DNA of 64,000 nt from Desulfobacterales bacterium (lineage in GTDB: Bacteria; Desulfobacterota; Desulfobacteria; Desulfobacterales; JAHEIW01): positions 1-64,000 of the forward strand of contig JASJAN010000025.1 in NCBI GenBank assembly GCA_030066985.1, written 5' to 3'. How positions within the stretch are numbered: position 1 is the stretch's first letter; the number at the start of each line of letters is the position of its first letter. The notes below the pieces were generated by a model. It was not told where the DNA came from and did no database searches. It was given only the letters and a program-made list of their open reading frames with translations. This document shows positions 16,895 to 44,112 of this stretch, piece after piece. The translations under genes were made by a program, and so were the position numbers.

Positions 16895-16946
16895 TTCGAT
16901 ATTCAAAGCCCTTACAGAGACCCAAAATTAACGAAGGCGGGACAGA

Positions 16947-17255: not shown

Positions 17256-17256
17256 T

Positions 17257-20255: not shown

Positions 20256-20260
20256 TCGCT

Positions 20261-27144: not shown

Positions 27145-28626
27145 TCACGTCCCGCAAAAGGTTCGATAGGGCTGTGCCGAAGGCGGCGGTGGCAGGTGAT
27201 AGTCGACCTTTTCCGGCAAATCCTGATAGGGTTGGGACAGAATACCCAGCAGTTTTTCCATGACCGTAAAATCGGCCCGCTCCACAGCCGCCTCCAATGC
27301 CTCTTCCACACGGTGGTTGCGGGGAATGACCGCCGGGTTGTGGGTGTGCATGAGCCGGCAGGCTGCCTCCCAGGAATCGGGTTGCCGTTTTAGCCGGGCC
27401 TGCCAGCGCGCGAACCACTGCTTAAAATCCGGGGCCCGGAAAACAGAGGCTTCCGGCAAGGAACCCGATGATAGGTCGCGAAAGGTGTTGGTAAAATCCG
27501 CCCCTTGTCGATGCATGCAATCAAGCAGGTCCTCCACCAGGGCGCCGTCGTCCGCTTCCTGATTCAACAGTCCCAGTTTGGCCCGCATGCCCGCCAGCCA
27601 GTAATGACGGAAAATGTCTGAAAATCCATAGATTTTCTCGTTTGCCATCGATGCGGCCTCTTGCGGATCCTTGTTAATTAACGGCAACAGCGTTTCAGCA
27701 AACCGGGCAAGGTTCCACTGGGCGATCTGCGGCTGCTGACCGTAAGCGTATCGACCGCTGTGATCGATGGAACTGAAAACGGTATTCGGATCGCAGGCGT
27801 CCATGAACGCGCAGGGACCGTAATCGAGGGTTTCACCGCAAAGGGCCATGTTATCCGTGTTCATGACGCCGTGGATGAAGCCAACCAGCTGCCAGCGAGC
27901 TACCAGGGATGCCTGCCGCTCCATGACGGCCCCAAGCAAAGCAAGATAAGGATTGCCGTTCGTGGTCAGATCAGGAAAGTGGCGACGGATTGTGTAATCG
28001 GCCAGCGTACGGATTTCGTTGGGCTTGCCCCTCGCCACCGCATACTCGAAAGTGCCCACGCGGATATGACTAGCCGCCGTGCGGGTGAGAATTGCCCCCT
28101 GCAGGGCAGTTTCACGCAACACCGGTTCACCTGTGGTCACCACCGCGAGGCTGCGGGTTGTCGGTATGCCCAGTGCGTGCAGGGCCTCACTGATGATGTA
28201 TTCCCGAAGCATCGGCCCCAAGGCAGCCCGCCCGTCTCCCTGCCGCGAAAACGGGGTCTTGCCAGACCCTTTGTACTGGATGTCGAAGCGCGCACCTTTC
28301 GGCGTCACTTGCTCGCCCAACAATATTGCCCGCCCATCGCCAAGCATGGTGAAAAAGCCGAATTGATGCCCGGCATAAGCCTGAGCGAGAGGCTCGGCCC
28401 CCTCGGGAATTTTGTTGCCCGAGAAAACGGCGGAGCCCTCGTCGCCCATTAGGACATCAGGATTCAGCCCTAAACACTGCGCCAGCGCCACGTTGAAAAT
28501 CACGAGTTTCGGTGTGCGCACCGGGACTGGATTCAACCGGACATAAAAAGCCTCCGGCAACATCGTGTAGCTGTTGTCGAATTTCCACCCGGCGTCAGGG
28601 CGGTCTTGTCTGCTACTGTGCGTCAT
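27145..28626 (-). CDS. selO: Protein adenylyltransferase SelO
   Basis: 493 aa pseudokinase-fold enzyme of the SelO/YdiU family that transfers AMP to protein Ser/Thr/Tyr. Visible: [11 protein letters not shown], the [16 protein letters not shown] segment, the metal/catalytic [18 protein letters not shown] region, and the C-terminal FCGT with the conserved redox Cys in place of selenocysteine. Normal length. Convergent with the sugar dehydrogenase; a 384-base noncoding gap separates it from the blh end of the rhodopsin cluster. Family role is in redox stress. Confidence 0.95.
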
Positions 28627-29010: not shown

Positions 29011-30012
29011 CTAGTGCGGCAATTCCATTTTCATTTTGGCGGGCACCTTACACTGAATCGGGATGGCACCCGCGTGCTCCGCCAGTGAAACGACCAGCGC
29101 GTGCGGGTAGGTCATGCAGGCGATGCCGATAAAGATGACACGGACCAGTTCGGGCATGTCGAAGCTGACACCGCTGAGCAACAAATAGGCCGATCCGCCC
29201 AGCGCCAGAGTCGCCGCGGTGACGGGCAGCGCCATTCGCATCATACCGGCGACGGCAGACAAGGCAGAGCCCGATGCGGTATTGCCCGACAGCCGGAGCA
29301 TGTGGCGAATAGAATGCAAAAAACTAAAGTAGACGCCGAAGGCCAGCAGGGCCGGAAGGATGCAAAAAAGTGCTGCCAGTGCCGCCAGCTCGATGGCTGG
29401 CAGCAAAAAAAGCAGCTCTTTGCGGCGAATGAATTGGAACCCGGCCCAGGTTATGCATACAAGCAGGCAGACAACAAAAACGGGCATGATTGCGACCAGC
29501 ATTGAAACCACGCTTCGGGCGCCCGGCTCCGAAATCAGATATGAAAACAGCTGCAAAATCTCCTGCCGGTTAAATACGGCTGGCAATGTCAGCACAAGCC
29601 CGCCACGGGCGAGAATCTCAGCGATGCGGACCAACAGCGGGGTTGAGTGTGTTGCTAAGCTGTCGCCCGCCCCGAAATGGTAGAGCGTCAGGGCAAGAAA
29701 TGCAACAAAGCTGGCAGTTGGATGGATCCACCACGCTACCAGCACAATTGCCATAGTGAGCACATAAGCCGTCAAGAAGTAAAGCGCCCAGGCTTTTCCG
29801 ATTCGCGGTTGCAGAAATTGTTTAGCCAGGGCGTAATCAAGCGCCCCGTGCGGAATCCCCACAAAGGGCAACAAAACGATGAGCAGCTTGATGTGCAGTT
29901 CGGTCGAACCGGGTCCAAAAAGTACGCTTCCGATAATGGCAACCACGCCAATGCAGCTAAATGCAAATGCGTGGCGAGCCAACCAACTGCGAGATGTCAT
30001 CCGAGCGATCAC
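29011..30012 (-). CDS. blh: Brp/Blh beta-carotene 15,15'-dioxygenase
   Basis: A 333-aa integral membrane enzyme with about eight helices. Conserved histidines that bind the catalytic iron in Brp/Blh proteins are present: GIPHGALDY (near residue 55), LYHFGAGDS (about 111) and SFLHSIRHMLRLSG (about 237). It splits beta-carotene into two retinals, the chromophore of the rhodopsin encoded upstream. Its start overlaps the crtY stop by 4 bases (ATGA), so it is the last gene of a coupled crtI-crtB-crtY-blh unit. O2 is a substrate of this family, notable in a presumed anaerobe. Confidence 0.93.
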   Translation of the reverse strand: MIARMTSRSWLARHAFAFSCIGVVAIIGSVLFGPGSTELHIKLLIVLLPFVGIPHGALDYALAKQFLQPRIGKAWALYFLTAYVLTMAIVLVAWWIHPTASFVAFLALTLYHFGAGDSLATHSTPLLVRIAEILARGGLVLTLPAVFNRQEILQLFSYLISEPGARSVVSMLVAIMPVFVVCLLVCITWAGFQFIRRKELLFLLPAIELAALAALFCILPALLAFGVYFSFLHSIRHMLRLSGNTASGSALSAVAGMMRMALPVTAATLALGGSAYLLLSGVSFDMPELVRVIFIGIACMTYPHALVVSLAEHAGAIPIQCKVPAKMKMELPH

Positions 30013-31169
30013 GACGCTGTGCCTCCAGCAAGGCTAACCCGTCCTGCCTGGCGTATAAAAGGGCGCTTCGGCATTGCTGCAATTACCCGAAAAATATCGA
30101 TAACCGATGCCTTATCGGATAAGAACCGCACCAGCCGGTCAGCCGGCACGCGCTGGAAAAGGTGAAAAAATACCTCCGGTGCTTCTGATGGATGCGCCGC
30201 TAAAAATGAAAGAAAAATCCTGTCCATGTAGGTAGACAGCCATGGACGTGGCTTTGGCAGCCGCTGATGCCGACCAGCAGCGATATCCCCGGCAACTGCC
30301 CGGCTCCACTTTTGAATGGGAAGAAAGCCGTATCCTGTGCTTCCTTTTACCATCCCTGCCGCTGTGCCGATAGGTATCAAACGCGTCGGCATTTTCGGCG
30401 GCGAGAGTTCCGCTGTCATGGGAATAACGCCTTGCTCCTGAAATAGAACCTCATAGTTGTTCAGGTCAAAGCGATCACTCAAATAATCTCTGATCAATTT
30501 AATATATACGTCGGTTTCAAGCGGCAAATGAGAAATCACGGTGGGTTCGACAAGCGCTTCGCTCTCAGAAAAAGGCAGCACGTAGACAAAGGTTATGCCG
30601 TGGCGCTGTGTAACGTCGAAGTCCATGAGTGTGACGGTCCTGCTGTCGAATACCGGTCTGTGAGCTCGTATTCTTTGACCGGTGTAATGCTGTAGAAGAC
30701 AACCCAATTTTGATAGTTGATGACCATCATTTCTGCCGTCAAACATGATCCGCGCTCTGAAGGTACCCCTGTTTGTCGAAATGCAAACATCACTCTTATT
30801 TTCAACGATATCCGTTACGGCCGTTTGAAGGAAAAGATCGGTCGATGGGGACCGGTTGATGGTATCCAAAGCAGCTTCATAGAAGGCATCAGCGGGCAGA
30901 CACTGATAGGGAAATTGCGAAGATGCCTGCATCAGCTCACGTCGGCCGAACCGGACCTTCCATTGGCGCCACTCATGGCCGACAGCGTGCGAAAACCGGT
31001 GCGTTGCAGTCTTCCAGAAACACCAGACGCGATCAAAATGGTACGAGCGGCGGGGTTCGAGCACAGCAATGCGCCGATCGCCAGATAATGCGTGAACCAG
31101 CTCGACCGCCAGCGACAGACCGGAGCAGCCCGCACCGACAATGGCGACATCATAAACCCTTTCCATCAA
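30009..31169 (-). CDS. crtY: Lycopene beta-cyclase
   Basis: 386-aa flavoprotein with the N-terminal dinucleotide site DVAIVGAGCSGLSLAVEL. CrtY/CrtL-type features follow: a DGR loop (MFDGRN near residue 147), MDFDVTQ, and PTRLIPIGTAAGMVKGSTGYGF near residue 275. It cyclises both ends of lycopene to make beta-carotene for cleavage by Blh. Start overlaps the crtB stop by 4 bases and its stop overlaps the blh start. Membrane-associated FAD enzyme by family knowledge. Confidence 0.92.
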   Translation of the reverse strand: MMERVYDVAIVGAGCSGLSLAVELVHALSGDRRIAVLEPRRSYHFDRVWCFWKTATHRFSHAVGHEWRQWKVRFGRRELMQASSQFPYQCLPADAFYEAALDTINRSPSTDLFLQTAVTDIVENKSDVCISTNRGTFRARIMFDGRNDGHQLSKLGCLLQHYTGQRIRAHRPVFDSRTVTLMDFDVTQRHGITFVYVLPFSESEALVEPTVISHLPLETDVYIKLIRDYLSDRFDLNNYEVLFQEQGVIPMTAELSPPKMPTRLIPIGTAAGMVKGSTGYGFLPIQKWSRAVAGDIAAGRHQRLPKPRPWLSTYMDRIFLSFLAAHPSEAPEVFFHLFQRVPADRLVRFLSDKASVIDIFRVIAAMPKRPFIRQAGRVSLAGGTAS

Positions 31170-32119
31170 TAACCTCTATGGGTTCCAGGCAGCCCTTTGA
31201 GCGCCCGGTGCAATTTCATATCATGATGCGGCTGACGACCGGCGTTCCAGTAAAACGGGTTAAACAGCACGCTGCCGACAGCGCAAAGAGTTCGCCATAT
31301 TTTCTCCGAATCTCTGACAAAAGCCCTGCTGCCCCAAATAGTTTCTGACCGAATACGCAGGCCAATGGCTTCGTAAAGACGCGCTGCAGTAATTACCGCT
31401 AAACGTGCGCGAAACGGGATAAATCGCATTCCTTTATCAGCGCTTCGATAATACTGTGCAGCACGGTCAAGAAGCTGTTCTCTGGCATTGGTGATTCGCC
31501 GTCTGATATCGGGCCTGCCGTTTAAAATGTGGTGCGGCTCGACATCTATTCCCAGCATTTCATGCGGCAGATAAATACGGTCGTTGCGGGCATCATCGAC
31601 GACATCTCTTGCAATGTTGGTCAATTGCATCGCTATGCCCAGGTCGACGGCGAACGGCAGGGCAACCGGATCCTTGACCCTCATGACGCCACACATCATT
31701 AAGCCCACTGTTGAAGCCACACCGTATGCATAGCGAATCAAATCGTCCCATGATTCTACTCTAACTTTGCCGGTGTCGGATTTGATGGCGTCGACGAGTA
31801 TATGCGGAAGCCGGGAGTCGATTCCAATTTGTTGCGCCAAATCTATGAAAGCCTGCACATCCGGCTGGCAACTGAAGGCGGCGTTTAGATCGGAGCGGAT
31901 GTTACCTAATTTGTGCCCGGCAACATATGCTGTTTGATGGTCAGCGATATCATCTACGTATCGGCAGAATGCATATAAAACGGCGACGTCAGCCGCTGTT
32001 TGGCGAGAAAACAGACTAGCAGCCCAGGTAAAGCTTTTGGCATGACGCGCCATTGTCTTTTGGGCGCTGCCCTGATGATTGATTCTGCTATAGGGTGCTG
32101 CACATGAGTGGATTTCCAT
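31166..32119 (-). CDS. crtB: Phytoene synthase
   Basis: 317 aa, helical squalene/phytoene synthase family. The first aspartate motif is RYVDDIADH (near residue 53) and the second is DVVDDARNDRIYLP (near 160), both Mg2+-diphosphate binding. It condenses two geranylgeranyl diphosphates to phytoene. No geranylgeranyl diphosphate synthase (crtE) lies in this cluster, so the precursor must come from a host enzyme elsewhere. It starts 17 bases after crtI and overlaps crtY by 4 bases. Confidence 0.95.
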   Translation of the reverse strand: MEIHSCAAPYSRINHQGSAQKTMARHAKSFTWAASLFSRQTAADVAVLYAFCRYVDDIADHQTAYVAGHKLGNIRSDLNAAFSCQPDVQAFIDLAQQIGIDSRLPHILVDAIKSDTGKVRVESWDDLIRYAYGVASTVGLMMCGVMRVKDPVALPFAVDLGIAMQLTNIARDVVDDARNDRIYLPHEMLGIDVEPHHILNGRPDIRRRITNAREQLLDRAAQYYRSADKGMRFIPFRARLAVITAARLYEAIGLRIRSETIWGSRAFVRDSEKIWRTLCAVGSVLFNPFYWNAGRQPHHDMKLHRALKGLPGTHRGY

Positions 32120-32136
32120 TGATGATACCTTTCTGT

Positions 32137-33681
32137 TTAATCTGACACATAACGGATATGCCGATGATCAATCACGTTCTGTAATACCTTGGCCGAACTG
32201 AGCACACCGGGCAGGCCGGCGCCGGGGTGGGTGCCGGCGCCGACAAAATATAAGCCCTTTAGCCGCTTGTTTTTGTTATGGAACCGAAACCAGGCCGACT
32301 GGGTGAATTTGGGCGCAATGGAAAAGCCGCTTCCCCACAGGGAGAGATAATTTCGCTCAAAGTCAAGCGGAGTCATGTAAAATGAGTGGACGATGTGGCG
32401 CTTCAGACCGGGAAGCAAATGCGATTCCAGAGTATCCAAAATGCGGTCTCGATACCTGTCACCCACGCGCCGCCAATCTATTCCGCTTTTAAGATTCGGC
32501 ACCGGAGAAAGAACATAGAAACTGTCGCATCCCTCCGGCGCCATGGTCCTGTCCGTTGCGGTGGGACGGTGAAGATAAAGGCTGAGATCATCTGCCAGGC
32601 GCTTGTGGTCAAAAACATCCTTGAGTAGCCCTTTGAACCGTGGCCCCAGCCAGATGGTATGATGCGCTATCTCATCGTACCGGCGGGAAGTCCCAAAATA
32701 AAGCACGAACAAGCCCATTGAGTAAGTCATGTGTTTGATGCGTTGATCAATTACGGGACTATCGTGGTCTTCCGGCATCATACGCGTGTAGACGTATGGA
32801 GGATCAGCATTCATGACGACAATGTCGGATCGCAACTGCTCGTTATTTTCGATGATGACCCCGCCCGCACGTTGATTTTTATTCACAATTCGCTCAACAG
32901 TTGTGCCGAGCCGCAAATGGATACCTTGGCGGCGCATCAAGTCGCCAAGCGCATCAATCAAAAAGCCCATCCCTCCCATGCAGTAATGTATGCCCCACCG
33001 CCTCTCAAGATAGTGGATCAAGGTGTATATCGAAGTTGTGTCAAACGGATTGCCGCCGACCAATAGAGGGTGAATACTGAATATCTGGCGCAGGTAAGGG
33101 TCCCGGATATAGCGCGACACCATCCCGTATACGCTCCTGTAGCTTTGAAGACGCATAAGTTTCGGCACCTGGGCGACCATGTCAGAAAGGCGATGGAAGG
33201 GTCTATCGGCCAGTTGATCGAAACCGACGTCGAAAATCTTGCGAGACATATCAAGCAATCGCAGGTACCCTTTACGGTCACCCGGATTAAATCGCTCGAT
33301 TTCTCTCAATGTGTCCTCTACCGTTCCACCGTAGTTGAATTCCCTTCGATCTGAAAAAACGATACGATACCACGGATCAAGCGGCCTTAGATCGACATAA
33401 TTATAAAGGTTTTCGTTATAAAGTGAGAACAGCTCCTCGAACAAAAACGGAGCCGTTATCACAGTGGGGCCGGCATCGTATGTGAAGCCGTCCTTTTTGA
33501 AAACCTGCGCACGCCCTCCCAGGCGCTTCATCCGATCAATGAGGGTAACGCGATACCCCAACGCCCTGAGCCTCAAAGCCGAGGCCATTCCGCCGAATCC
33601 GGCCCCGACAACGACAGCATGAAGCGCATCGTCAGTGTCACAATGGACCATTGTCAAAGTCATGCTCGCAGCCTTCCACAT
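32137..33681 (-). CDS. crtI: Phytoene desaturase (lycopene-forming)
   Basis: 514 aa FAD-dependent CrtI-type desaturase with VVGAGFGGMASALRLRALG at the N terminus, GGRAQVF and DAGPTVITAPF following, and the C-terminal FAD region YFVGAGTHPGAGLPGVLSSA. It turns phytoene into lycopene in four steps. Several ATGs lie at the 5' end (33681, 33663, 33654); the one at 33663 has GGAAGG upstream and may be the true start. The stop of the rhodopsin gene is about 100 bases upstream on the same strand. Confidence 0.95.
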   Translation of the reverse strand: MWKAASMTLTMVHCDTDDALHAVVVGAGFGGMASALRLRALGYRVTLIDRMKRLGGRAQVFKKDGFTYDAGPTVITAPFLFEELFSLYNENLYNYVDLRPLDPWYRIVFSDRREFNYGGTVEDTLREIERFNPGDRKGYLRLLDMSRKIFDVGFDQLADRPFHRLSDMVAQVPKLMRLQSYRSVYGMVSRYIRDPYLRQIFSIHPLLVGGNPFDTTSIYTLIHYLERRWGIHYCMGGMGFLIDALGDLMRRQGIHLRLGTTVERIVNKNQRAGGVIIENNEQLRSDIVVMNADPPYVYTRMMPEDHDSPVIDQRIKHMTYSMGLFVLYFGTSRRYDEIAHHTIWLGPRFKGLLKDVFDHKRLADDLSLYLHRPTATDRTMAPEGCDSFYVLSPVPNLKSGIDWRRVGDRYRDRILDTLESHLLPGLKRHIVHSFYMTPLDFERNYLSLWGSGFSIAPKFTQSAWFRFHNKNKRLKGLYFVGAGTHPGAGLPGVLSSAKVLQNVIDHRHIRYVSD

Positions 33682-33782: not shown

Positions 33783-34583
33783 TCAAGCAATCGCAAAACC
33801 TTGCTGTTCGCTCAGCATTGAAGCCGTTACCGTTAGCATAATGCCGTAGATGACCTTGGAAGCGATATCTGCAATGGTATAAATAACCTGCTGGCTCACA
33901 ATAGTAATCTCATAGGAAACACCGGCCTGCATTAAGATCGGTGCCGCATAAGCTATCGGGTATAGCCACCAGGCAATGTAAAAAAGCGGGAGAATCGCGC
34001 CGAATACCTTGCGCGGGGAGTCTTCCATACGGGCCTTTCCGTCATTGATCACCCGGGTGATGAGGACCAACACATAAATAAAGAACAGCGTTGAGACAAT
34101 TCCCCAAAAAGCCCACCAGAAAATATTCTCGTTAAGCCGGCCAGGCTCGTAAAATTGGCCGATGTAACCGAGTATGATCATCATACAGCCTGAAAATGAA
34201 AACCGGGTGATGTATTTGGCGCGTTCGGTCCCGACGATCTCAGCAACAAACAGTATCTGGATCAACAACATGGGCACATCAATCAGCCAATTCAGGTACC
34301 GGTAGCCGTTGGTGAACAGATCCGCTCCGGGCTTCAGCGCATAGGCCTGCCCATTGAAGGCGTACGCAGCCGTCCAGCTTTCTTTCTGTATGAACAGAAG
34401 TAAAAATGCCGATACCATGACAACAACCGATATGACCGATGACATCCGGTACTTTGGCAGGCAATTGTTTTTGGTGAGGATAAAAAATAGCAAGGCGGCT
34501 GCCATCGCAGCGTACCCAAGTGTCAGAATGTGATTGACTATTTCAAACCCTTCGACAGACACTGTAAAAACTTCAGCATTCAT
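33783..34583 (-). CDS. NDQ-motif microbial rhodopsin, light-driven Na+ pump (KR2 type)
   Basis: 266 aa, seven helices, from the ATG at 34583 with SD GGAGG (an upstream TTG overlaps the SD). Helix C reads YRYLNWLIDVPMLLIQ, giving N98, D102 and Q109, the NDQ set of Na+ pumps (N112/D116/Q123 in KR2), not the D-T-E of proton pumps. Retinal lysine is K243 in ADIASKVIYG with counter-ion D239. H18, D88 and R95 also match KR2 H30, D102 and R109. Position 106 is Leu (PR L105), which suggests green absorption. KR2 R243 is Gln here, and KR2 N61 is Ser. The gene heads crtI-crtB-crtY-blh. Ion choice needs electrophysiology. Confidence 0.95.
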   Translation of the reverse strand: MNAEVFTVSVEGFEIVNHILTLGYAAMAAALLFFILTKNNCLPKYRMSSVISVVVMVSAFLLLFIQKESWTAAYAFNGQAYALKPGADLFTNGYRYLNWLIDVPMLLIQILFVAEIVGTERAKYITRFSFSGCMMIILGYIGQFYEPGRLNENIFWWAFWGIVSTLFFIYVLVLITRVINDGKARMEDSPRKVFGAILPLFYIAWWLYPIAYAAPILMQAGVSYEITIVSQQVIYTIADIASKVIYGIMLTVTASMLSEQQGFAIA

Positions 34584-34799: not shown

Positions 34800-35618
34800 T
34801 TATTTGCCAGACTGGTAGTGGATGACAGCAGCAGGCTCAAGAATCCGGAATGTAAAGGACTCGGTGTAGTACAGTTTTACCGTATCGGTTGTGTGCGACT
34901 CATATCCCACTGCGAGATCTTGGCCTAAAATAAGCTCCAGGTCACCGCCGCGCTGTGACAACATGAAAGCCTCGTTTGCATATTTGCCGGTCAGATAGGG
35001 ACTCAAAACCACCTGACCGTTGAGGATATTTTCAGCCTGCATTTTAACAGGGTAGCCTTGCAGCGTGGCCGACATGACCTTCCATAGCTTCGGTCCCACG
35101 ACAAAAGAATAAGGCCCCTCAATAGAGCGCCCGGCGAAAACGGTGATGCCCTCGGCAACGGCTTCCAGCAATTGCGCAGGTTTTGAGTTCAGCGTCAGGC
35201 ATTCACCCTCAGCACACAATGCCAATCCTTTGATATTGGCCTCCGGCAAGCCATGGTATACGACTTGTTCTTCAAACAGAGCAATTTTCCGGGCAGCATC
35301 TTCTAAATTGTCAAGGTTTACATCTTTGGCACCCCGAACCACGCTGTCCAATTCCCTGATGTCCAGCTCAAATGGAATCCGGGTTTCAACAAGATGATGC
35401 ACCTTATGAATGCCACATGAAACACCCCCCTTGGGCTGCTTTTTGGGAAATTCAAGACGCCCCTCAGGGACACCGGGAAAATCGGTTCCCATCGGCCCGG
35501 AAACATCAACCACCTGCCGGGCAGAAAGCATCGCTTTTAGGCTGCTGATCGCCTGTTCATCGATTTCGATCCAGGCTTCAGCGGGAATCGGCGCCAGTTC
35601 TCTTTTTAAAATATCCAT
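34800..35618 (-). CDS. Encapsulin shell protein (family 1, HK97 fold)
   Basis: 272 aa from the ATG at 35618 with SD AAAGGAG. The N-terminal helix MDILKRELAPIPAEAWIEID, the strand-rich E-loop region and FELDIRELDSVVRGAKDVNLD are typical of linocin/encapsulin shells that self-assemble into roughly 24-32 nm cages. It lies 48 bases downstream of a hemerythrin gene whose product ends in a targeting peptide, so the cargo is evident. The rhodopsin gene starts 216 bases further on. Pore residues cannot be judged from sequence alone. Confidence 0.93.
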   Translation of the reverse strand: MDILKRELAPIPAEAWIEIDEQAISSLKAMLSARQVVDVSGPMGTDFPGVPEGRLEFPKKQPKGGVSCGIHKVHHLVETRIPFELDIRELDSVVRGAKDVNLDNLEDAARKIALFEEQVVYHGLPEANIKGLALCAEGECLTLNSKPAQLLEAVAEGITVFAGRSIEGPYSFVVGPKLWKVMSATLQGYPVKMQAENILNGQVVLSPYLTGKYANEAFMLSQRGGDLELILGQDLAVGYESHTTDTVKLYYTESFTFRILEPAAVIHYQSGK

Positions 35619-35666
35619 TAGATCTCCTTTCACTGAATGCGATAATGATTTGCAACGATACACCCA

Positions 35667-36212
35667 TTACGTTTTTAGACCGCCGATGCCCAGCCCCATA
35701 GCGGTGATGGTGGCATCGCCGATTACTTTGGCCTTAGGCCCTTTTTCGGACTTGGCAGCGCGATTGGCGATCGCGCCGGGGACCTCAGGAACTTTGATGT
35801 TTAAAGCGTTATCCTTGGCTTCGACAAAAAGTTTGCCGAGTGTTTCAAGATCTTCAGGCGGGATCACACCCTGGGACATTGGAAATATATCAGCCTCCTC
35901 TTCATCCAAATGATGCGTTGTATATTCACCCAGCCCTTCGATTTTAACTGGAAAATGTTCGTGTTCATTTGGAAATCCTTCTGCATCCTTGATAATGAGT
36001 TCTATAATATGATGTTCGTTGACCGCCTCCAGTGCATCGTGCTCAGCCTCAGGGAAGGTTTGCAAAATGTCATAAAAATATTTTTCTTCCAGGGTATGGT
36101 GAACGACCAAGTGGCGCATAAATTCGTCAAAAACTTTGGGGTCATTCATAGACTGTTTAAAGAGCTGACGCAAAACACCGTGGTGAGAGACCAAATTGTC
36201 GATGATGCTCAT
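35667..36212 (-). CDS. Encapsulin cargo: hemerythrin-like protein with targeting tail
   Basis: 181 aa from the ATG at 36212 with SD GGAGG; the longer open frame upstream lacks an SD. Residues 1-115 are a hemerythrin four-helix bundle with iron ligands H10/H11 (SHHG), HHTLEEKYF, EHH and HHLDEEEADIF. A flexible, Ala/Lys-rich linker leads to a C-terminal tail, TAMGLGIGGLKT, which matches the encapsulation peptides of hemerythrin cargoes. Encapsulated hemerythrins are linked to binding of O2 or NO and to protection from oxidative or nitrosative stress. Function here is inferred. Confidence 0.9.
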   Translation of the reverse strand: MSIIDNLVSHHGVLRQLFKQSMNDPKVFDEFMRHLVVHHTLEEKYFYDILQTFPEAEHDALEAVNEHHIIELIIKDAEGFPNEHEHFPVKIEGLGEYTTHHLDEEEADIFPMSQGVIPPEDLETLGKLFVEAKDNALNIKVPEVPGAIANRAAKSEKGPKAKVIGDATITAMGLGIGGLKT

Positions 36213-36320
36213 AGATCCTCCATGGATTAAAATGTTTGTAAGTTTGTAAGATCGATGCCGGGGAGTCTTCCCAACCTTAAAGACCTTTTTGTAAGCCATC
36301 TTCTCTGCGAAACGACTCCG

Positions 36321-37331
36321 CTATGAATTCCCGAAAACGCCTTCAGCGTGTGCGGCATAATCGGGCAGTGTGCGCCTGAATGAATCCTTCATATTTGAGA
36401 TGATGTTCTTTTGAATTTGACGAACACGTTCTCTTGATATTCCATACTGTTTGCCGATCTCTGCTAACGTCTTGGGATTTTCAGTAAAAATGCGCATATC
36501 AAAAATATCAAGCTCACGCTGGTTCATTTCTTTTCGGAATTCTGCAATTCTTTGATGAAGTATGACATTAAATTCCTTTTTGGATATTTTTTCTTCAATG
36601 GATTCAGCGGGCGCTTTCATGAATTCGATTCTGGTGGTATCCGAATCATCTGTTATAGGCGCATCGAGAGATACATCCCACGCGCTGAGGCGCTGGTCCA
36701 TTTCGACAACTTCCTTTTTTGGCACTCCCAACCGCTTTGAAATAAGCTCTGGCTTCGGCTCAAATCCCATATCCCGCAATTTCTGTTTTTCTTTTTTGAG
36801 TCTGAAAAATAGTTTTCTTTGCGCCTGTGTGGTTCCAATTTTTACCAGGCGAGAGTTGTCCATTAAATACTTGACGATATACGCTTTAATCCAGAATGAG
36901 GCGTAATATGAAAATTTGACATTTTTGTCCGGATCGAATTTTTCAACCGCTTTTATCAGCCCGATATTGCCCTCCTGGATGAGGTCCATCAGATTTTGCA
37001 TCCAGAGTCTCTTATAATCCAGGGCGATCTTCACGACGAGCCTTAAATTGGAAGTCACCAACACATGCGTTGCCCGGCGATCAGCATTCTTACGTAGTCT
37101 TAGAGCCAGCTCTCGCTCTTGATCCCGCGTCAAAAGCTGGTATTTGCTGATATTCGCCAGATAGCTCCGGAGTGTATTGGGGTGGTCAGATACATTCGTC
37201 CGCTGATTCGGTTTTTTCGTCGAATTTGCAGAATCAACTGCCTCTTTTGTGTCTATTTTCGTTGGCTTAGCCTTGTTTGGATTTGCCCGACTTTGTCTGG
37301 ATTTTCGCGCTGGATTTCTCATTTTCGACAT
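36321..37331 (-). CDS. rpoH: RpoH-type (sigma-32) sigma factor
   Basis: 336 aa from the ATG at 37331 (SD GAGGGGGG); an in-frame TTG is upstream. About 50 residues of Lys/Asn-rich N-terminal extension are followed by sigma70 regions 2 (DLIQEGNIGLIKAVEKFD, YASFWIKAYIV), 3 and 4 (GISRERVRQIQ). The RpoH box QRKLFFRLKK (about 171-180) identifies the heat-shock subclass. In other bacteria RpoH paralogs respond to photo-oxidative stress; this role is only suggested by its position between light-signalling and encapsulin/rhodopsin genes. Confidence 0.9.
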   Translation of the reverse strand: MSKMRNPARKSRQSRANPNKAKPTKIDTKEAVDSANSTKKPNQRTNVSDHPNTLRSYLANISKYQLLTRDQERELALRLRKNADRRATHVLVTSNLRLVVKIALDYKRLWMQNLMDLIQEGNIGLIKAVEKFDPDKNVKFSYYASFWIKAYIVKYLMDNSRLVKIGTTQAQRKLFFRLKKEKQKLRDMGFEPKPELISKRLGVPKKEVVEMDQRLSAWDVSLDAPITDDSDTTRIEFMKAPAESIEEKISKKEFNVILHQRIAEFRKEMNQRELDIFDMRIFTENPKTLAEIGKQYGISRERVRQIQKNIISNMKDSFRRTLPDYAAHAEGVFGNS

Positions 37332-37359
37332 CCTGCCCCCCTCTCTTAACAATGAACCC

Positions 37360-37746
37360 TTACTTTAAGGTATTGTACGTTTCCCCGCTCAACACTTTAT
37401 CAATAGCTTGGATTATTTCCTTTGCTGCCGACCGCTTGAGAATGTATCCTGAAGCGCCAGATGACATGCATTGTTGCATATACTCCGGTTCTTCGTATGT
37501 GCTTAACACAATGATTTTTAGGCCCGGATCGTATTTATTCACCAGAGAAACAACATCAGGCGCCTGGGTAACGATAAAGGACTGATCAAGCAAGACAAGG
37601 TCCGGATCTATTTTTGGCAGCATCTCTGTAAGCGACTTCTCATCACATACCATAACGATTGAATTGAACTTGGTTTTCAATAATCCTCTGATACTGTCCA
37701 GTGTCGCCATATGCCTGTCTGCCAATAAAACAGTTCTTTTTTTCAT
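37360..37746 (-). CDS. Single-domain response regulator
   Basis: 128 aa, receiver only. Phospho-accepting Asp is in LVLLDQSF (near residue 54), switch Thr/Ser is in VLSTYEE, and the conserved Lys in ILKRSAA. No output domain follows, so it works by protein contact or in a phosphorelay. It lies between the sigma factor gene (about 30 bases) and the LuxR-type regulator gene, with twin 12-bp repeats about 195 bases upstream of its start. It may connect the two kinases to the RpoH-type factor. Confidence 0.85.
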   Translation of the reverse strand: MKKRTVLLADRHMATLDSIRGLLKTKFNSIVMVCDEKSLTEMLPKIDPDLVLLDQSFIVTQAPDVVSLVNKYDPGLKIIVLSTYEEPEYMQQCMSSGASGYILKRSAAKEIIQAIDKVLSGETYNTLK

Positions 37747-37939
37747 TGAATTGCCTTAATTTTCTGAAGAAAATCGCACATGAGCTAATATGATTGATGG
37801 TTAGAAGGGACGCCTCAGGTCAATGCCGCAATATGAATATTAAGACAACTGACTATAGCGGTTATCGCGCAGACGTTGAGTGAAATCAATTCGGAGAATT
37901 ACAGATTTTGAGAAAAGAATTTACTGACATATGCTGGCA

Positions 37940-37971
37940 AAAAATACGTATTAATCAGTAAAAATACGTAT
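37940..37971. promoter_or_regulatory. Twin direct repeat AAAAATACGTAT, 20-bp spacing
   Basis: AAAAATACGTAT occurs at 37940-37951 and at 37960-37971, exactly two helical turns apart, in the gap between the LuxR-type regulator and the single-domain receiver. Such phasing fits a dimeric or side-by-side activator site for the downstream genes. It could be bound by the NarL-type regulator encoded next to it, but it does not match the E. coli NarL heptamer. Confidence 0.45.
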
Positions 37972-38612
37972 CAGAGGGTTGTGAGATTATTCTTGATGGC
38001 AAACTTAATCAGATCGGCTGTGGTTTTGAGATTTAATTCTTGCATCATATTGTACTTATGCGTTTCAACTGTTCGGGGAGAAATGGAAAGCATATTGGCG
38101 ATTTCTTTGGCAGAATATCCTTCGACGACAAGGTGCAAAATCTCTTTTTGTCTGTCGGTAAGTTTACTGACCATTAAGTTTTCACCGGGGCGGGATTTTT
38201 TATAAGTTTGCATTAACTCCCCGGCGATAATCGGCGTTACATATATCTTGCCTTGCAAGGCCTCTTTAATTGCCGTTACGAGTTCACGAGATGCTGAATT
38301 CTTCAAGACATAACCGGATGCGCCGGCATCAAAGGCACTAGCAGCATAGACCACATCCGGATGCATGGTGAGGAAGATGACTTTACACTGTTCATCCATT
38401 TTTTTAATCTGACGCACAGCTTCGATGCCATTAAGCAGCGGCATAGAGATATCGACCACAATGAGGTCGGGATGTAGTTTTAGAGCCTCTGCCACCAGAG
38501 CCCTTCCATCCTCAACGGTTCCAACAATTTCAAACTCCGGCTCAAGAAGATTTTTCAACCCCTCAAGAACGATCTGATGATCATCTGCCAACAAAATACG
38601 CGTCTTGCGCAT
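37971..38612 (-). CDS. NarL/LuxR-type response regulator
   Basis: 213 aa. Receiver (1-120) with phospho-Asp in LIVVDISMPLLNG (near 54) and Lys in VLKNSAS. A C-terminal LuxR HTH (about 148-205) carries LTDRQKEILHLVVEGYSAKE, IANMLSISPRTVETHKYNMM. It follows its likely kinase (38616-40982) by 3 bases, and the kinase has a HisKA_3-type dimerisation region, the normal partner for NarL-type regulators. Targets are probably nearby; the repeat at 37940 is a candidate. Confidence 0.93.
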   Translation of the reverse strand: MRKTRILLADDHQIVLEGLKNLLEPEFEIVGTVEDGRALVAEALKLHPDLIVVDISMPLLNGIEAVRQIKKMDEQCKVIFLTMHPDVVYAASAFDAGASGYVLKNSASRELVTAIKEALQGKIYVTPIIAGELMQTYKKSRPGENLMVSKLTDRQKEILHLVVEGYSAKEIANMLSISPRTVETHKYNMMQELNLKTTADLIKFAIKNNLTTL

Positions 38613-38615
38613 GGT

Positions 38616-40982
38616 TTACCTCGTCATATTCATCTGATTTAAATGTGAAAGCGTTTTCAATTTTATGGTCGTTCCTTTGCCGGGGCCGGATTCAACAGAA
38701 AAATCGGCGTCGATCATGCTAGCCCGCTCTGCCATGCTGGCCAGCCCGATTCCTGCCATTTCAACAGTCGAATTGTGTTCAAACCCGATACCATTGTCTT
38801 TCAGCAATAAACAGATAGAATCATTTTTTTTGTAAAGCCGAACCTGGATATGTTTTGCCCTGGCATGTTTGCCGATGTTTTTTAATCCCTCCTGCAGGAT
38901 GCGATATATGCAAATGGCTGTCTCTTTGGGAACATCTTCAATTGTCGTATCCAGATCCAGAGTCGGTGATATGCCATAAATTCGAAAAAAATTATTGCTT
39001 TCGATCTCAACCGCTTTAACCAATCCTAAATCGTATAAAATAGAGGGATGAAGTTGGCGTGAAATCATATGAATATCAGATGAAAGCTCCCCAAGATGTT
39101 TTCCAATTTTTTGCAGTTTTTCCTTTAAAAACCTGGATAAAGACGGGTGTTTCATCTCCAGTTCGTCCACCTCGATATTCAAAATAGCCAGCCTTTGGGT
39201 AATATCGTCGTGCAGTTCACGGGCAAGAAGTGCCCGCTCCGTTTCTTGGGCGTTCAGCAGTTTTCGAGTGAGCAATCTGGCTTCTTTTTGGCTTTCAATT
39301 AAAGATTCCTCTGACTGTTTTCTTCTTGTTATATCACGATTACTGGCGCGGAAACCTAAAAATTGGTTTCGCCCATCGCGTACCCCCTGGCAGGCATGTT
39401 CGATCCAGCGTATCTCACCCTTCTTTGTGCGGATACGAAATTGAATCTCTCCTCGTTCCGGCTTTTCAATTGCCTCCTGGCGGTGATCAAACCAGATATT
39501 TTTGTCTTCCGGCACAATGATCTGATCTAAGAGCTTGGGATTGTCAATAAATTCTTCAGCCCTGTAACCGGTGATGCGCTCGCATGAAGGTGAAATGTAA
39601 ATGAAATTTCCATCAGGGCCTCGCCAGTATTCCCAGTCATATGTATAATCGGCGACTGTGCGATAGTCGAGCTCTGCTTGGCGTAGTTGTATCTCAGCTT
39701 TTTTTCGTGCGGAAATGTCTGTGTGGGCAATGACAACCCCCCCTTTTTCTCCTTTAAACGGGATGACATTCATCAAGAACCAACGTTGCATTAATGGAGA
39801 GTGACAAGGATACTCCAATGCAAAGTGATCTTGCGAACCTTCCAGTACCGCCTCTATGCCGCTTAAGGCCTTTTGCGCGCTCTCGTCCGAATCTTCAGAG
39901 GCACGGCGGCAGGCCTCCAAATAATTTACCCCTTCACCGACAAGTTTTTGTGAGGGCACATCATTTTTACGCGCAAATTCAAACCAGCTGCTATTGGCTG
40001 AAAGGATTTGCCCGGCCTTGCCTAAAACGACAATATGGTCTGTCATCGACATGAGGATCGCACGATTAAAATCTTTGCTTTGGGCCAATATTTTCTCTGA
40101 GATCTTTTGATCCGTAATATCTTGATCTGTGCCTAAAATGCGCAACGGATTTCCATGAGTATCGCGTTCAAAGCGGTAACGTGCCAGAATGTTACGAACT
40201 TCATCGTCTTTCCTCACGATCCTATATTCAAAAGAGTGCCATTCGCTGTCAGAAGCCCAGCCGTCTCTGAATTCTCGATCGTAAACAGCTCTATCATCAG
40301 GGTGAACACATTCCAGGCGAAGATCGTGACTCGGCTTCACGTTCTTTGGCAGATCGTGGATGGCGTATTCATTTTCTGACCACCACTCCTCACCGGTTTT
40401 CATATCTTGCACCCGGTATCCAAAGTTGCCGATCCGTTCAGCTTCGTTGAGCCGATCCAGCGTTTCACGCAAAATCGATTCTTTCCGTTGGCGTTCTTCT
40501 ATTTCAATTTGCAACTGCTCATTAACTTTTGCAAGTTCGTCGGTACGTTCTCTCACACGTATTTCAAGCGCATCATGGGCTTCTTGCAATTCTTTTTCGG
40601 CGAGTCTGATGCGATCCATCGCTTGGATCCTGGCCAAAAGCTCCTTACTTGAAACAGGTCTGGCAATGAAGCCATCTGCCCCCAGGTTGAGGCCTTCAAC
40701 CTGATCATTGGAAGACGTCTTCATACCAGAAAGCAAAACGACAAAAATCCCCTGCAGATCGGGATCTGCCTTAATCTGCGAGCAGAGCTGGCGACCATCT
40801 CCGTCGGGAAGGACCACATCCAGAAGCAGTAGATCCGGATGGTCCGCACGGAGTTCTGCTATGCACTCCTTTGCCGATGATGCTTCATGAACCTCGTAGC
40901 CCGCGGATTTCAGGACCCGTGTCGTGGCAAAGCGAATATCTGCATCGTCGTCGACCAGAAGAATTTTGGATTTTTTAATCAT
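38616..40982 (-). CDS. Receiver / multi-PAS hybrid histidine kinase (NarX type)
   Basis: 788 aa, soluble. Receiver at the N terminus (1-120; LLLLDVVLPDGDG), coiled coil (about 130-175), three PAS domains (about 190-300, 305-425 and 430-555), then a HisKA_3 region (ARELHDDITQRLAILNIEVD) and HATPase (DNGIGFEH, AGIGLASMAERA). No GAF/PHY or LOV cysteine signature is visible in the PAS domains, so a direct light-sensing role is not shown. It precedes a LuxR-type regulator by 3 bases and follows the PAS kinase and B12 protein on the same strand. Confidence 0.92.
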   Translation of the reverse strand: MIKKSKILLVDDDADIRFATTRVLKSAGYEVHEASSAKECIAELRADHPDLLLLDVVLPDGDGRQLCSQIKADPDLQGIFVVLLSGMKTSSNDQVEGLNLGADGFIARPVSSKELLARIQAMDRIRLAEKELQEAHDALEIRVRERTDELAKVNEQLQIEIEERQRKESILRETLDRLNEAERIGNFGYRVQDMKTGEEWWSENEYAIHDLPKNVKPSHDLRLECVHPDDRAVYDREFRDGWASDSEWHSFEYRIVRKDDEVRNILARYRFERDTHGNPLRILGTDQDITDQKISEKILAQSKDFNRAILMSMTDHIVVLGKAGQILSANSSWFEFARKNDVPSQKLVGEGVNYLEACRRASEDSDESAQKALSGIEAVLEGSQDHFALEYPCHSPLMQRWFLMNVIPFKGEKGGVVIAHTDISARKKAEIQLRQAELDYRTVADYTYDWEYWRGPDGNFIYISPSCERITGYRAEEFIDNPKLLDQIIVPEDKNIWFDHRQEAIEKPERGEIQFRIRTKKGEIRWIEHACQGVRDGRNQFLGFRASNRDITRRKQSEESLIESQKEARLLTRKLLNAQETERALLARELHDDITQRLAILNIEVDELEMKHPSLSRFLKEKLQKIGKHLGELSSDIHMISRQLHPSILYDLGLVKAVEIESNNFFRIYGISPTLDLDTTIEDVPKETAICIYRILQEGLKNIGKHARAKHIQVRLYKKNDSICLLLKDNGIGFEHNSTVEMAGIGLASMAERASMIDADFSVESGPGKGTTIKLKTLSHLNQMNMTR

Positions 40983-40997
40983 GTCGGTCCTTAGCCA

Positions 40998-42131
40998 TTA
41001 AATTGCCTGATATCCTTTTTGTGTGGGTATTTTGAAGTAAACCGTTGTGCCCTCACCCACTCTGCTGTCTATCCATATTTCTCCCCCGTGCGCCTCGATT
41101 ATTTTTCGAGTAATCAGCATACCAAGTCCCGTGCTTTTTTCCCCCGCAGTCTTTTTAGTGCTCGTTTTTTCAAAAGGTTTGAAAAGTTTGTCCATTTCCT
41201 CCGGTGCCATTCCAGGGCCTTTATCTTTAACTGAAAAAGTTATAAATTGCTGATCACACGAAAGGGAAATCGATACATGGCTGTTGGGAGCTGTGTGTTC
41301 AATAGCATTAGAGACCAGGTTGGTCATGGCCTGTTCTATTTTGGACGCATCCAGGACTGAACGCGGCAAGCTTTCGTCGGAATTGACCTGCAAGTCAATC
41401 CCTTTTTTATCCGCCTGAAGTGTATTGAGTCGCAGGCTATTTACCAAGACCTCATGGATGAGTGCCGGCTGCAAGTCCAGCTCGAATCTGCCGGCCTCGA
41501 TGGCGCTTACGTCCAAAAAATCATCCACCAGAGATTTCATAAAAACACAGGATGCGTTAATTGTATTTAAAAAACCGATTTGATCCGCGTCCAGCAGTTT
41601 CTTGGCCTCTTCGATGAGAAATTCGGAATAGGAAATGATCAGATTGATGGGTTTGCGTAGGTCGTGAGCCGCCATTCCCAAAAAGCGGTTTTTTTCTTGA
41701 TTAAGCCTTTTTAGTTGAGCATTTGTTTTATGGAGCTCACGCATAAGATTGTTCAGCTCCTGGTTTAGGGACACCAGTTCTTTCCGCATATTTTCAAGTT
41801 CTTCGGTGTCCAGCCGCCCGAACATCACGATTTGGTTTAAGACCTTTTTAAATGAGAAATAAAAGCTTTGCGGCAGGCCGGATGCAGTGCTGATATTGAA
41901 CAGATATTCTTTGGAAGGCTCGTTTATCAATGCGGGCAAATGAAACGTATCGTTAAAGTCAACCATCAAGCCCTGGATATTTTCACCGATTAAACGACGA
42001 CCTGCTATGGTTTTAGCGTATTGGTTGGCCTCGACGATCTTGCCACCACTAGAAAGGAGAAAAAACAAAACCGGGGCCCTGTTTTTGAAATAGGTATTGG
42101 TTTCAAAAGAGATATGTTGATCCCATTCCAT
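40998..42131 (-). CDS. PAS histidine kinase
   Basis: 377 aa, soluble. A PAS-like N-terminal domain (about 15-110) is followed by a long coiled coil (about 112-150), HisKA (MAAHDLRKPINLI, His near residue 155) and HATPase (NLVSNAIEH, DKGPGMAPEEM, STGLGMLITRKI). The ATG follows the B12-domain stop by 1 base, a coupled arrangement suggesting the two products work together. I infer that the B12 protein, or a complex with it, gates this kinase. Heme or flavin in the PAS domain cannot be judged from sequence. Confidence 0.92.
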   Translation of the reverse strand: MEWDQHISFETNTYFKNRAPVLFFLLSSGGKIVEANQYAKTIAGRRLIGENIQGLMVDFNDTFHLPALINEPSKEYLFNISTASGLPQSFYFSFKKVLNQIVMFGRLDTEELENMRKELVSLNQELNNLMRELHKTNAQLKRLNQEKNRFLGMAAHDLRKPINLIISYSEFLIEEAKKLLDADQIGFLNTINASCVFMKSLVDDFLDVSAIEAGRFELDLQPALIHEVLVNSLRLNTLQADKKGIDLQVNSDESLPRSVLDASKIEQAMTNLVSNAIEHTAPNSHVSISLSCDQQFITFSVKDKGPGMAPEEMDKLFKPFEKTSTKKTAGEKSTGLGMLITRKIIEAHGGEIWIDSRVGEGTTVYFKIPTQKGYQAI

Positions 42132-42132
42132 A

Positions 42133-42768
42133 TCACATACCGCTAATCATATTTTCAAGATCATCCAGTGATTGAATATATTCGGTGCCGGCGTATTGTT
42201 TGATGGTATCAATGCCCCCCCATCTGAAAGCCTGTCCGCCAATCAGCAAATTCAAGTTTGGAAAATCTGAGCGAAAGACTTCGATACCCCGCTTCAAATG
42301 ATCCAGGTTTGATAATATGCTTAGTGAAAATCCAACGACATCCGGTCGAGTTTCATGGATAAACCGGACCGTTTCTTCAATCGGTGAATTGGCACCAAGA
42401 AAATACCCATCCCACCCATTCAGCTCAAAGATGTCAGCGACCATTTTTCCACCGATCTGATGGAATTCATTAGCAGCGCAAGCGATCACCACTTTTCTAC
42501 CGATACGTTCACTAGCAAATATGGACGGATAAGCCAGGTTAAGAAGGCTTTCGGTGATGGAAGTCGATAGATGCTCGGTGGCAACGGTTATTCGATTGTT
42601 TTCCCATAACTCGCCGACTCGATACATACTGCGCTGAAAAAGGTCGGTATAAAGCTTTTTAAGATTTATTTTTTCGCCCAGCAGTTTTTGGACGATGTCA
42701 TGGCATTTTGACCGATCGCCGTCAAGCAAGGAGGCGAGGTAGGCTTCATACAATTTTTCTGCGATCAT
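42133..42768 (-). CDS. Stand-alone B12-binding photoreceptor-like protein
   Basis: 211 aa: a helical cap (1-85) and a Rossmann B12-binding domain (90-205). The cap has the W-x9-E-H signature (W55 ... E65-H66) of CarH/LitR-type light sensors, and E101-F-H103-Q-I-G106 is the E/D-x-H-x2-G motif whose His binds cobalt from below. There is no DNA-binding domain, unlike CarH. The residue after W55 is Glu56, where CarH has the His that binds cobalt after light. Thus light-driven bis-His ligation may be absent. Genes: heme oxygenase upstream, kinase coupled downstream. Confidence 0.9.
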   Translation of the reverse strand: MIAEKLYEAYLASLLDGDRSKCHDIVQKLLGEKINLKKLYTDLFQRSMYRVGELWENNRITVATEHLSTSITESLLNLAYPSIFASERIGRKVVIACAANEFHQIGGKMVADIFELNGWDGYFLGANSPIEETVRFIHETRPDVVGFSLSILSNLDHLKRGIEVFRSDFPNLNLLIGGQAFRWGGIDTIKQYAGTEYIQSLDDLENMISGM

Positions 42769-42774
42769 TTTTAT

Positions 42775-44112
42775 TTACTCTGAATCTCCGGTTGGTGGTT
42801 TACGGTTTGGATTTGAAGCAATCGCCATTGTTTTGCTAATAATATTTTTGGCACCGGAAATCCACTTGTCTGGAAAAAGAGCGTCGTCCGTCAGCCACCC
42901 CTTGATCGCTGCGACGGCACCATTTATCCCGTTTTTCTCATCAGTAACCGAGGCTACCAGCAATTTGCCGGTATTTTTAAATTGTTTTGCAAACTCGGCT
43001 CCCGCCAATTGGTCAAATTCACCGGATAGTGATTCAAATTCCTTTTCAGACACTAACTCAGTCCTATCGCGCCTCAGAATCTCTGCTGCTGACAGCAGCT
43101 TGTCATAGGATGCCGTATTTTCAGGAATTGCAAGCGTTAGCTCTTCATGTAAATATTTAAGCGTCTGCTCCAGCATTATTTGAGGCATTCCCCTGTTGGC
43201 AAGCACTCTGCCAATCCACTCGATCTGGCTTTGCAAACTTTTCTGATCTAACCGTGTCAACGTCACCAGCCAGCATGAATCACTGTCGGAAAATCGTTTG
43301 CCGCGTTCTCCAAAGCGATGTTCATAATATGGGAACTCCGTCCAACTTCGCGTACTTGCTTTGAGAGCAGCTTGAATTTCCCGTTCATCATCGGGAATGG
43401 GGTAATTGCCCGCCTCAGGATTAATCCGTGCCACATGCAAGGATTTCTCGGTATTATCCAAGGGGTATAAAAGTTTGTACAATTCCTCCAGACCGGCGAA
43501 AGCCTCATAGGCTGCTTCAACGATCCGGTCGTGTAATGCTGGATTGTCCAGTACTTCGTTCATTTTATCTGAGAATTGTTTCCAATGGGTTGACACGTCA
43601 TCCCTGTAACTCGAATAGTAACGACAGCCATTTATTTCATCTAAGTGAAAGGTCTCTGAAATATCCGGTCGATGCATGTTGTTGCCCAGTGTCGATCCTT
43701 CATACACATACAAATAGCCAAGCAACGTAATGGGATTGTCAACCCGCCTCAGGCGGATTTTTTCAGTTATTGCTGTTGCAGCTTCAATGCAAGAAGTATG
43801 GGTCAATTCAATTCGCGGCTCGAAAAATTTAAGATCTTCCTGCAAAAATCTGAGTTTCTTAAGGCCATCGTTCCATATGGATAATACGCGTTTGTCTTTT
43901 GAAATTGCAATCTCATTTTCGAATACACTATGAATAACGGCCAAGGCCTGGAGCTGGTTCACATAGCTTTCCAGGGGAAGTTTATGGTCTATCAGGGCTT
44001 TAAAATAAGGCAGGGACTCAAGTTTGGCATGATATTCTTGAGTCTCCACTTTGAGTTTTGCCATTACTTTGATCGAGCGATCTTTTTGAGTTTGGATATC
44101 GTTGGCACTCAA
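42775..44112 (-). CDS. Heme oxygenase with unknown C-terminal domain
   Basis: 445 aa, TTG start. Residues 15-215 are a heme oxygenase domain. Proximal His is H28 (ETQEYHAKLE), and the distal helix has YVYEGSTLGNN (about 136-145) with the flexible Gly. Residues 220-445 form an unrecognised, mostly helical region (FGERGKRFSDSDSCWL, WIGRVLANRGM) followed by more helices and a Pro-rich end. It could produce biliverdin or act as a heme sensor. The gene is 6 bases upstream of the B12 protein. No phytochrome is present in the window to use biliverdin. Confidence 0.88.
   Translation of the reverse strand: MSANDIQTQKDRSIKVMAKLKVETQEYHAKLESLPYFKALIDHKLPLESYVNQLQALAVIHSVFENEIAISKDKRVLSIWNDGLKKLRFLQEDLKFFEPRIELTHTSCIEAATAITEKIRLRRVDNPITLLGYLYVYEGSTLGNNMHRPDISETFHLDEINGCRYYSSYRDDVSTHWKQFSDKMNEVLDNPALHDRIVEAAYEAFAGLEELYKLLYPLDNTEKSLHVARINPEAGNYPIPDDEREIQAALKASTRSWTEFPYYEHRFGERGKRFSDSDSCWLVTLTRLDQKSLQSQIEWIGRVLANRGMPQIMLEQTLKYLHEELTLAIPENTASYDKLLSAAEILRRDRTELVSEKEFESLSGEFDQLAGAEFAKQFKNTGKLLVASVTDEKNGINGAVAAIKGWLTDDALFPDKWISGAKNIISKTMAIASNPNRKPPTGDSE

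Follow-up and report, generated by a model that had tools for sequence, protein, structure and literature searches.

The window analysed here, a stretch of 64,000 nucleotides that is contig C25 of a 97.8% complete genome (G000), carries a gene that we consider, with a probability of about 0.8, to encode an NDQ rhodopsin of the KR2 type that binds retinal and, driven by light, pumps Na+ out of the cell; the retinal would be made by the host itself with the four genes immediately downstream. The features around this gene are collected in Table 1. Papers are cited by their PMC numbers.

Table 1. Features of the rhodopsin region, with window positions, strand and supporting evidence
Feature	Position	Strand	Evidence
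blh, beta-carotene 15,15'-dioxygenase, retinal-forming	29011..30012	-	TIGR03753 188.4 bits, cut-off 95.25
crtY-like lycopene cyclase	30009..31169	-	PF05834 207.3 bits; under all NCBIfam cut-offs listed
crtB-like squalene/phytoene synthase	31166..32119	-	PF00494 203.5 bits; under all NCBIfam cut-offs listed
crtI, phytoene desaturase family	32137..33681	-	TIGR02734 568 bits, cut-off 238
NDQ rhodopsin	33783..34583	-	266 aa from ATG 34583; alternative TTG start 34595
Family 1 encapsulin shell protein	34800..35663	-	NF041155 252.8 bits, cut-off 100
Hemerythrin with C-terminal LGIGGLKT tail	35667..36299	-	PF01814
RpoH-like sigma-70 family factor	36321..37352	-	NF005143 256.4 bits, cut-off 241; under TIGR02392 cut-off
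Two response regulators, receiver-PAS-histidine kinase hybrid, histidine kinase	37360..42131	-	Pfam
Stand-alone cobalamin-binding domain protein	42133..42768	-	most CarH/photocobilin-type signature residues (by eye)
Heme-oxygenase domain protein	42775..44112	-	PF01126 71.7 bits

The interval that the first-pass annotation had named as a rhodopsin gene is confirmed as one, with the minus strand as the coding strand; on the plus strand of the same interval the frame is interrupted by stops and gives no protein. The TTG, four codons 5' of the ATG, would open a 270-aa version of the frame, and the GGAGG directly before the ATG favours the shorter protein. The rhodopsin matches PF01036 with 132.8 bits, where the cut-off is 24.6 (E-value 1.6e-38), and it is the sole match to this family at E <= 0.001 across the 5.07 Mb of the genome. 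Its best solved relatives are the KR2 chains (E 3.8e-69, 236 bits), with 47-50% identity and 123 identical residues among the 244 aligned. All of the residues on which the first identification had relied (H18, D88, R95, N98, D102, Q109, D239 and K243) were found in the KR2 alignments, and the identity as a KR2-type NDQ rhodopsin is borne out both by KR2 as the best solved match and by a complete set of core residues. In the numbering of KR2, which was taken from chain 3x3b, the residues kept are H30, S64, S70, D102, R109, N112, D116, Q123, Q157, E160, W215, Y218, P219, Y247, D251, S254 and K255. The RNDQDK motif (R109, N112, D116, Q123, D251 and K255), used as the selection criterion for NDQ rhodopsins (PMC11006869), is therefore complete. 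A contig scan found 142 relatives, and the further analysis drew on the best 80 of them; among the 81 homologues formed by these 80 and the window protein, R109, N112, D116, Q123, D251, S254 and K255 are invariant, and S64, S70 and E160 are likewise invariant.

An AlphaFold2 model of the rhodopsin was built on a 28-sequence alignment and has a mean pLDDT of 90.0. When it was searched with Foldseek, the best 50 rows consisted of 49 KR2 entries and one of the Na+ pump IaNaR, and VIA-align against the listed KR2 chains gave Z values of 32.4-34.0 and TM scores (query) of 0.87-0.91. The model has the seven-helix KR2-like fold, although Cl- pumps equal KR2 by Z: KR2 and the Cl- pump 5b2n are tied at 34.0, so that the fold by itself cannot name the ion. 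By sequence, the best Cl- pump chain (163 bits) scores above the Na+ pump ErNaR (9tbd, 155.5 bits). For both reasons the ion was assigned from the motif and not from overall likeness, and from the motif we infer that Na+ is the ion moved. KR2 itself switches to H+ pumping when Na+ is scarce (PMC7195465).

Two differences from KR2 had been proposed as possible changes to the ion path or gating, and both are real as differences, but neither is peculiar to this protein. At KR2 position 61, Ser is the commonest state (Ser in 52, Asn in 20 and Ala in 9 of the 81 homologues, that is, the best 80 of 142 and the window), which rules it out as a special feature; Thr263 is also the commonest state, again in 52/81 of the same set. 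At position 243, Gln is found in 19 and Arg in 62 of these 81, and the Gln marks a sublineage spread over several phyla. In the careful tree, which adds KR2 to the 81 homologues (82 rows), a branch 1.43 changes per column long, with support 100/100, separates the Gln243 side from the rest. Its members come from Desulfobacterota, Ningiella, one Planctomycetota, one Spirochaetaceae, MAGs of Bacilli, Acholeplasmataceae and Mollicutes, and two further bacteria, and, judged from the names, this branch appears to be rich in lineages usually thought anaerobic. I122, G132, P161, W167, V181, I185, F204 and L208 are common to all 19 sequences. In the passages covered by a limited literature search on R243, a naturally occurring group with Gln243 is nowhere mentioned.

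In KR2, R243 is part of the extracellular E11-E160-R243 triad (PMC10608830, PMC7195465), a trait that KR2 and ErNaR have in common but that does not define NDQ rhodopsins. This triad is incomplete in the window rhodopsin, which has Gln at 243 and keeps E160 (E11 lies outside the aligned KR2 stretch). NDQ rhodopsins are divided into two subgroups by position 74 (PMC11006869), and the window protein, like its clade, has at KR2 L74 the residue of subgroup 1, in which Leu or Ile stands there; in the window protein it is Leu. KR2 from Krokinobacter eikastus belongs to subgroup 1 (PMC11006869) and resembles the window protein in RNDQDK, H30, S70, L74, D102, E160 and the model. The window protein differs from KR2 by R243Q, N61S, N81S, Y25F and G263T, and is parted from the KR2 side by the long, fully supported branch given above. 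ErNaR and SrNaR of subgroup 2 share the NDQ motif, but they have Glu at L74 and no D102 (PMC11006869); the Leu and Asp of the window protein at these positions rule out its membership of that subgroup. ErNaR also retains the Arg of the triad (PMC11006869), unlike the window protein with its Gln243.

The rhodopsin is the first gene of a tight same-strand operon and is followed by crtI, crtB, crtY and blh. The gap from the rhodopsin stop to the crtI start is 101 bp, crtB begins 17 bp after crtI, and the overlaps of crtB with crtY and of crtY with blh are 4 bp each. CrtI and Blh exceed the cut-offs of NCBIfam subfamilies, and CrtB and CrtY exceed those of Pfam only. By these matches the retinal operon is complete, and the four genes represent the full path from geranylgeranyl diphosphate to retinal, in which CrtB would make phytoene, CrtI lycopene, CrtY beta-carotene and Blh retinal. 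Blh is a dioxygenase, and O2 is required for its retinal synthesis. Promoter-like sites number 9, the same as in shuffled sequences (mean 9.0), and terminator-like sites number 15, compared with 9.7 in shuffles (sd 3.3).

Rhodopsins 76-95% identical to that of the window are found in 7 other Desulfobacterota MAGs (L002-L008, among the best 80 of 142). One of them is Desulfofustis sp. PB-SRB1 (L005), and another is of the same genus as the window (L002, genome G002). PF01036 was matched in 4 of 146 relatives, three with the NDQ type (G000, G002 and G007, the genome of L003) and one with another type (G058); in a phylum-wide draw, a rhodopsin was found in 1 of 395 genomes, namely G000 itself. 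From both counts, the rhodopsin is rare and patchy. The gene of G058, another member of the order (L084, G058:C1:6733652-6734278), is rhodopsin-like, reads NLADFVNQIAFG and, by eye, has Gln at the expected retinal Lys. Among the 8 Desulfobacterota genomes with the rhodopsin, dsrA is full length in 5, cut by a contig end in 1 and a weak match in 2 (G148 and G151). A search of 11 rhodopsin genomes found Blh in 9 and not in G152 and G155 (the duplicates G146 and G147 being counted once), and COX1 is present in 7 of the 11 genomes searched. COX1 is unmatched in the rhodopsin carriers G150, G151, G152 and G155 and matched in G001, which has no rhodopsin, so the oxidase and the rhodopsin are not strictly coupled in these draft genomes.

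The window rhodopsin adds to a kind of pump that is already known, and its host group already had a named sequence. In PMC7714340, the legend to a tree includes the entry 'DsNaR: NaR from Desulfofustis sp. PB-SRB1', together with PmNaR from Phycisphaera mikurensis, so that by 2020 the literature already credited one bacterium of the group with a Na+ pump gene of the NDQ type. DsNaR is presumably the protein of L005, the two being matched by organism only. Beyond DsNaR, the literature passages covered name no sulfate reducer with an NDQ rhodopsin, nor do they give any account of the DsNaR-type clade, operon or bioenergetic setting. The L005 protein is like that of the window in belonging to the Gln243 clade, in being about 83% identical and in having a Desulfobacterota host with dsrA, but its locus differs, with the order crtI-crtB-crtY-blh-rhodopsin, blh directly upstream of the rhodopsin, and carotenoid proteins only 31-58% identical to those of the window. 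The rhodopsins of L002-L004 and L006-L008 are of the same clade (76-95% identical, best 80 of 142), and outside the genus the carotenoid genes, in those loci that contain them, are 28-73% identical and differently ordered. As the carotenoid proteins are far more diverged than the rhodopsin, the rhodopsin seems to travel partly independently of them.

The trees also point to gene transfer. Rooting of the rhodopsin tree was tried with L084 and a second Ningiella rhodopsin; this root was discarded because of end branches above 4, and the tree was rebuilt without both. In a quick tree the Desulfobacterota rows do not form one clade and the Gln243 rows do not either, but better scores were obtained with trees in which one or the other set was forced to be a clade (AU p 0.864 and 0.866, respectively). 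In the careful 82-row tree, the rhodopsin of L004 groups with Ningiella (98/67), so the Desulfobacterota rhodopsins may not be monophyletic. Compared with the window, RpoB is 59.8% and rhodopsin 82.3% identical in L005, and the corresponding values are 59.2% and 77.8% in L004, 81.9% and 75.6% in L006, and 79.0% and 88.5% in L003. The quick RpoB tree pairs L004 and L005 with support 100; the RpoB row of L010, a mistaken pick with 19-23% identity to the others compared, sat in this tree and was excluded from the conclusions. The rhodopsin data reject this pairing with an AU p of 0.008 and leave unrejected a tree in which the six non-Desulfocapsaceae rhodopsin rows are held together (p 0.15), both values coming from 27 of the 82 rows and from a group chosen on RpoB with the rhodopsin tree already seen. 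Given this conflict between the rhodopsin and RpoB histories, the rhodopsin gene has been passed horizontally from lineage to lineage.

Within the genus, the region from the kinases to blh is repeated in G002 as four long DNA segments in the same order with 87-88% identity, and the block proteins of this genome are 84-95% identical to those of the window. G001 is also of the window's genus, is 97% complete, and its RpoB is closer to the window than that of L002 (94.2 vs 94.1%, support 95). No rhodopsin, blh or encapsulin was found in G001 or in G003, another genome of the genus, and nearly all of the 20-kb region is missing from G001. In view of the nearness of G001, either this genome has lost the block or the block was acquired repeatedly. 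SelO lies near blh in the window (27145-28626), and its counterpart in G002 (91%) sits at the opposite end of the block; it is also near the rhodopsin in the Bacilli/Mollicutes loci L013 (5634-7055) and L018 (951-2387). These 2 of 80 loci (best 80 of 142) and the window are too few for an association of SelO with the rhodopsin to be claimed.

Upstream of the rhodopsin, the tail of the hemerythrin, in the form LGIG[GS]LK, is found again in L002 and L007, and the tailed hemerythrin is a probable cargo of the encapsulin. An encapsulin and a hemerythrin with a cargo-like tail lie close to the rhodopsin in L002 and L007 too. Encapsulin of the window's kind is present in 6 of 7 rhodopsin genomes vs 0 of 5 without rhodopsin, as raw counts uncorrected for kinship. 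For the B12-binding protein, the nearest solved chains are 8j2w and 8j2x, which are named photocobilin (PMC10979010). When it was compared by eye with PMC10979010 and PMC11796333, the light-sensor signatures GELW, EH, ExH and GxxxP were found, with a departure from the GxxH signature in which Asn replaces Gly, and we predict that this protein is a light sensor. It adjoins the heme-oxygenase protein and the kinases, and 42133-44112 may belong to a split light-sensing system. On the other side, about 7 kb from blh, MrpB/MrpD/NuoLMN-like membrane subunits are found at 16208-22012; by eye, they belong to a multi-subunit Na+/H+ antiporter or a related complex.

The host had been described as Desulfobacterota-like, and this holds: it is of the same order as G007 (L003, Desulfobacterales MO_071.B1), which agrees with G147 in its matches and contigs, and dsrA is present. 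The dsrA gene on contig C4 is full length (613.7 bits, cut-off 392.85) and is adjoined by a dsrB-like gene with 83.7 bits on the dsrA model, by which the host carries genes of sulfate respiration. The earlier presumption of an anaerobe or sulfate reducer is supported in its second part by these genes. The host is no plain anaerobe, however, given a cbb3-like oxidase, whose subunits are above the Pfam and under the NCBIfam cut-offs, and a Blh that needs O2. As for Na+ machinery, NqrA and NqrB are above cut-off and adjoin a DASS sodium:anion symporter, also above cut-off; MrpD is above cut-off as well, and an Rnf-like set is present with RnfC under cut-off.

The genome has one F1 beta gene above cut-off, in an F1 operon that is full by eye, and two F0 loci. 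One of these, on contig C23, comprises F0 genes only, a, b' and b among them, and no F1 adjoins it; Mrp antiporter genes come after it. Its single c subunit reads GPGVGQG ... SESTGIYS and so has the Gln and the Glu-Ser-Thr that we take to be the Na+-binding residues of c subunits. Its best solved relatives are 4bem c1/c2 and then 1yce, 'sodium ion specific', and the c subunit of the second F0, presumed to be of the H+ type, also has its best match in this structure (4bem_J), followed by chloroplast c chains; the Na+-type call for the C23 subunit therefore rests on its residues. Beside this Na+-type c subunit (L126:5932-6213) there is a four-hairpin fused F-type c subunit of 324 aa (L126:4860-5834; with the single c, G000:C23 about 104859-106212), in which, by eye, the carboxylate is kept in the first hairpin only. 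Five-hairpin versions of 404 aa occur in G147 and G150.

The reading as a Na+ pump has to be weighed against a loss of this function in the Gln243 clade, which might instead pump H+, accept a broader range of cations or have a slow photocycle with a regulatory role. The 19 Gln243 sequences are indeed set apart by a split with full support and have I122, G132, P161, W167 and L208 in common, and KR2 pumps less and is less stable when it carries R243A or R243Q (PMC10608830). Against this, KR2 continues to pump Na+ after replacement of R243, the triad perhaps serving stability (PMC7195465), and S64, S70, R109, N112, D116, Q123, E160, D251 and S254 do not vary in any of the 81 homologues (best 80 of 142 and the window). 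We regard such a loss as improbable. Much less probable still is a role mainly in light sensing or stress signalling in place of energy supply: the predicted B12 light sensor, kinases and regulators are nearby, but the rhodopsin is flanked by encapsulin and crtI with no transducer, and its residues are those of a pump. Moreover, among the loci listed, several of which are short, the whole kinase cluster occurs in L002 only, with one distant kinase match each in L010 and L028.

An assembly or binning chimera, with the cluster coming from another organism, is the explanation to which we give the least credence. The GC content is 0.50-0.56 over 26-34 kb against 0.42-0.46 over 36-46 kb, and the absence of rhodopsin, blh and encapsulin from G001 and G003, and of most of the 20-kb region from G001, would fit a foreign origin. 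However, the separate same-genus MAG of L002 has the same ordered block, which practically rules chimerism out, and rhodopsins of the same clade occur in six further Desulfobacterota MAGs. The cluster most probably belongs to the host.

For an NDQ-type Na+ pump in this host, the mechanism would be as follows. Light would drive Na+ outward through the rhodopsin, and the resulting gradient could feed Nqr, the Rnf-like set, Mrp, the DASS symporter and the F0 with the Na+-type c subunit. Since Blh needs O2, charging of the pump would presumably require light and O2 at the same time, a setting that photic mats and aggregates would offer by day, and there it may sustain the Na+ gradient while O2 hampers sulfate respiration. 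A more far-reaching proposal, which we put forward tentatively and hold to be rather doubtful as a whole, is that a Na+ cycle powered by light operates in some of the sulfate reducers that inhabit photic mats. The membrane would be charged by a separate NDQ branch whose extracellular exit has been rebuilt (no R243); the Na+ would be spent on symport of anions, perhaps sulfate, and on the alternative F0 with the four-hairpin c subunit, which may share the only F1 found; and the cycle would be switched on by light and O2 via the B12 sensor and Blh.

The best-described rhodopsins that pump Na+ come from aerobic bacteria. A complete pump-plus-retinal unit that moves horizontally, in bacteria with dsrA, would, if true, mean light as an energy source for a group treated as dark and anaerobic. 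What is added beyond DsNaR is the clade, the operon and its neighbours, the history of transfer and the host's Na+ machinery. The route by which Na+ leaves KR2 is disputed, and the Gln243 clade offers naturally occurring variants for its study. The home of PB-SRB1 is the pink berries, consortia with a phototrophic partner (PMC4262008), and as these form a natural consortium open to sampling, the idea of light as an energy source for such bacteria would be testable.
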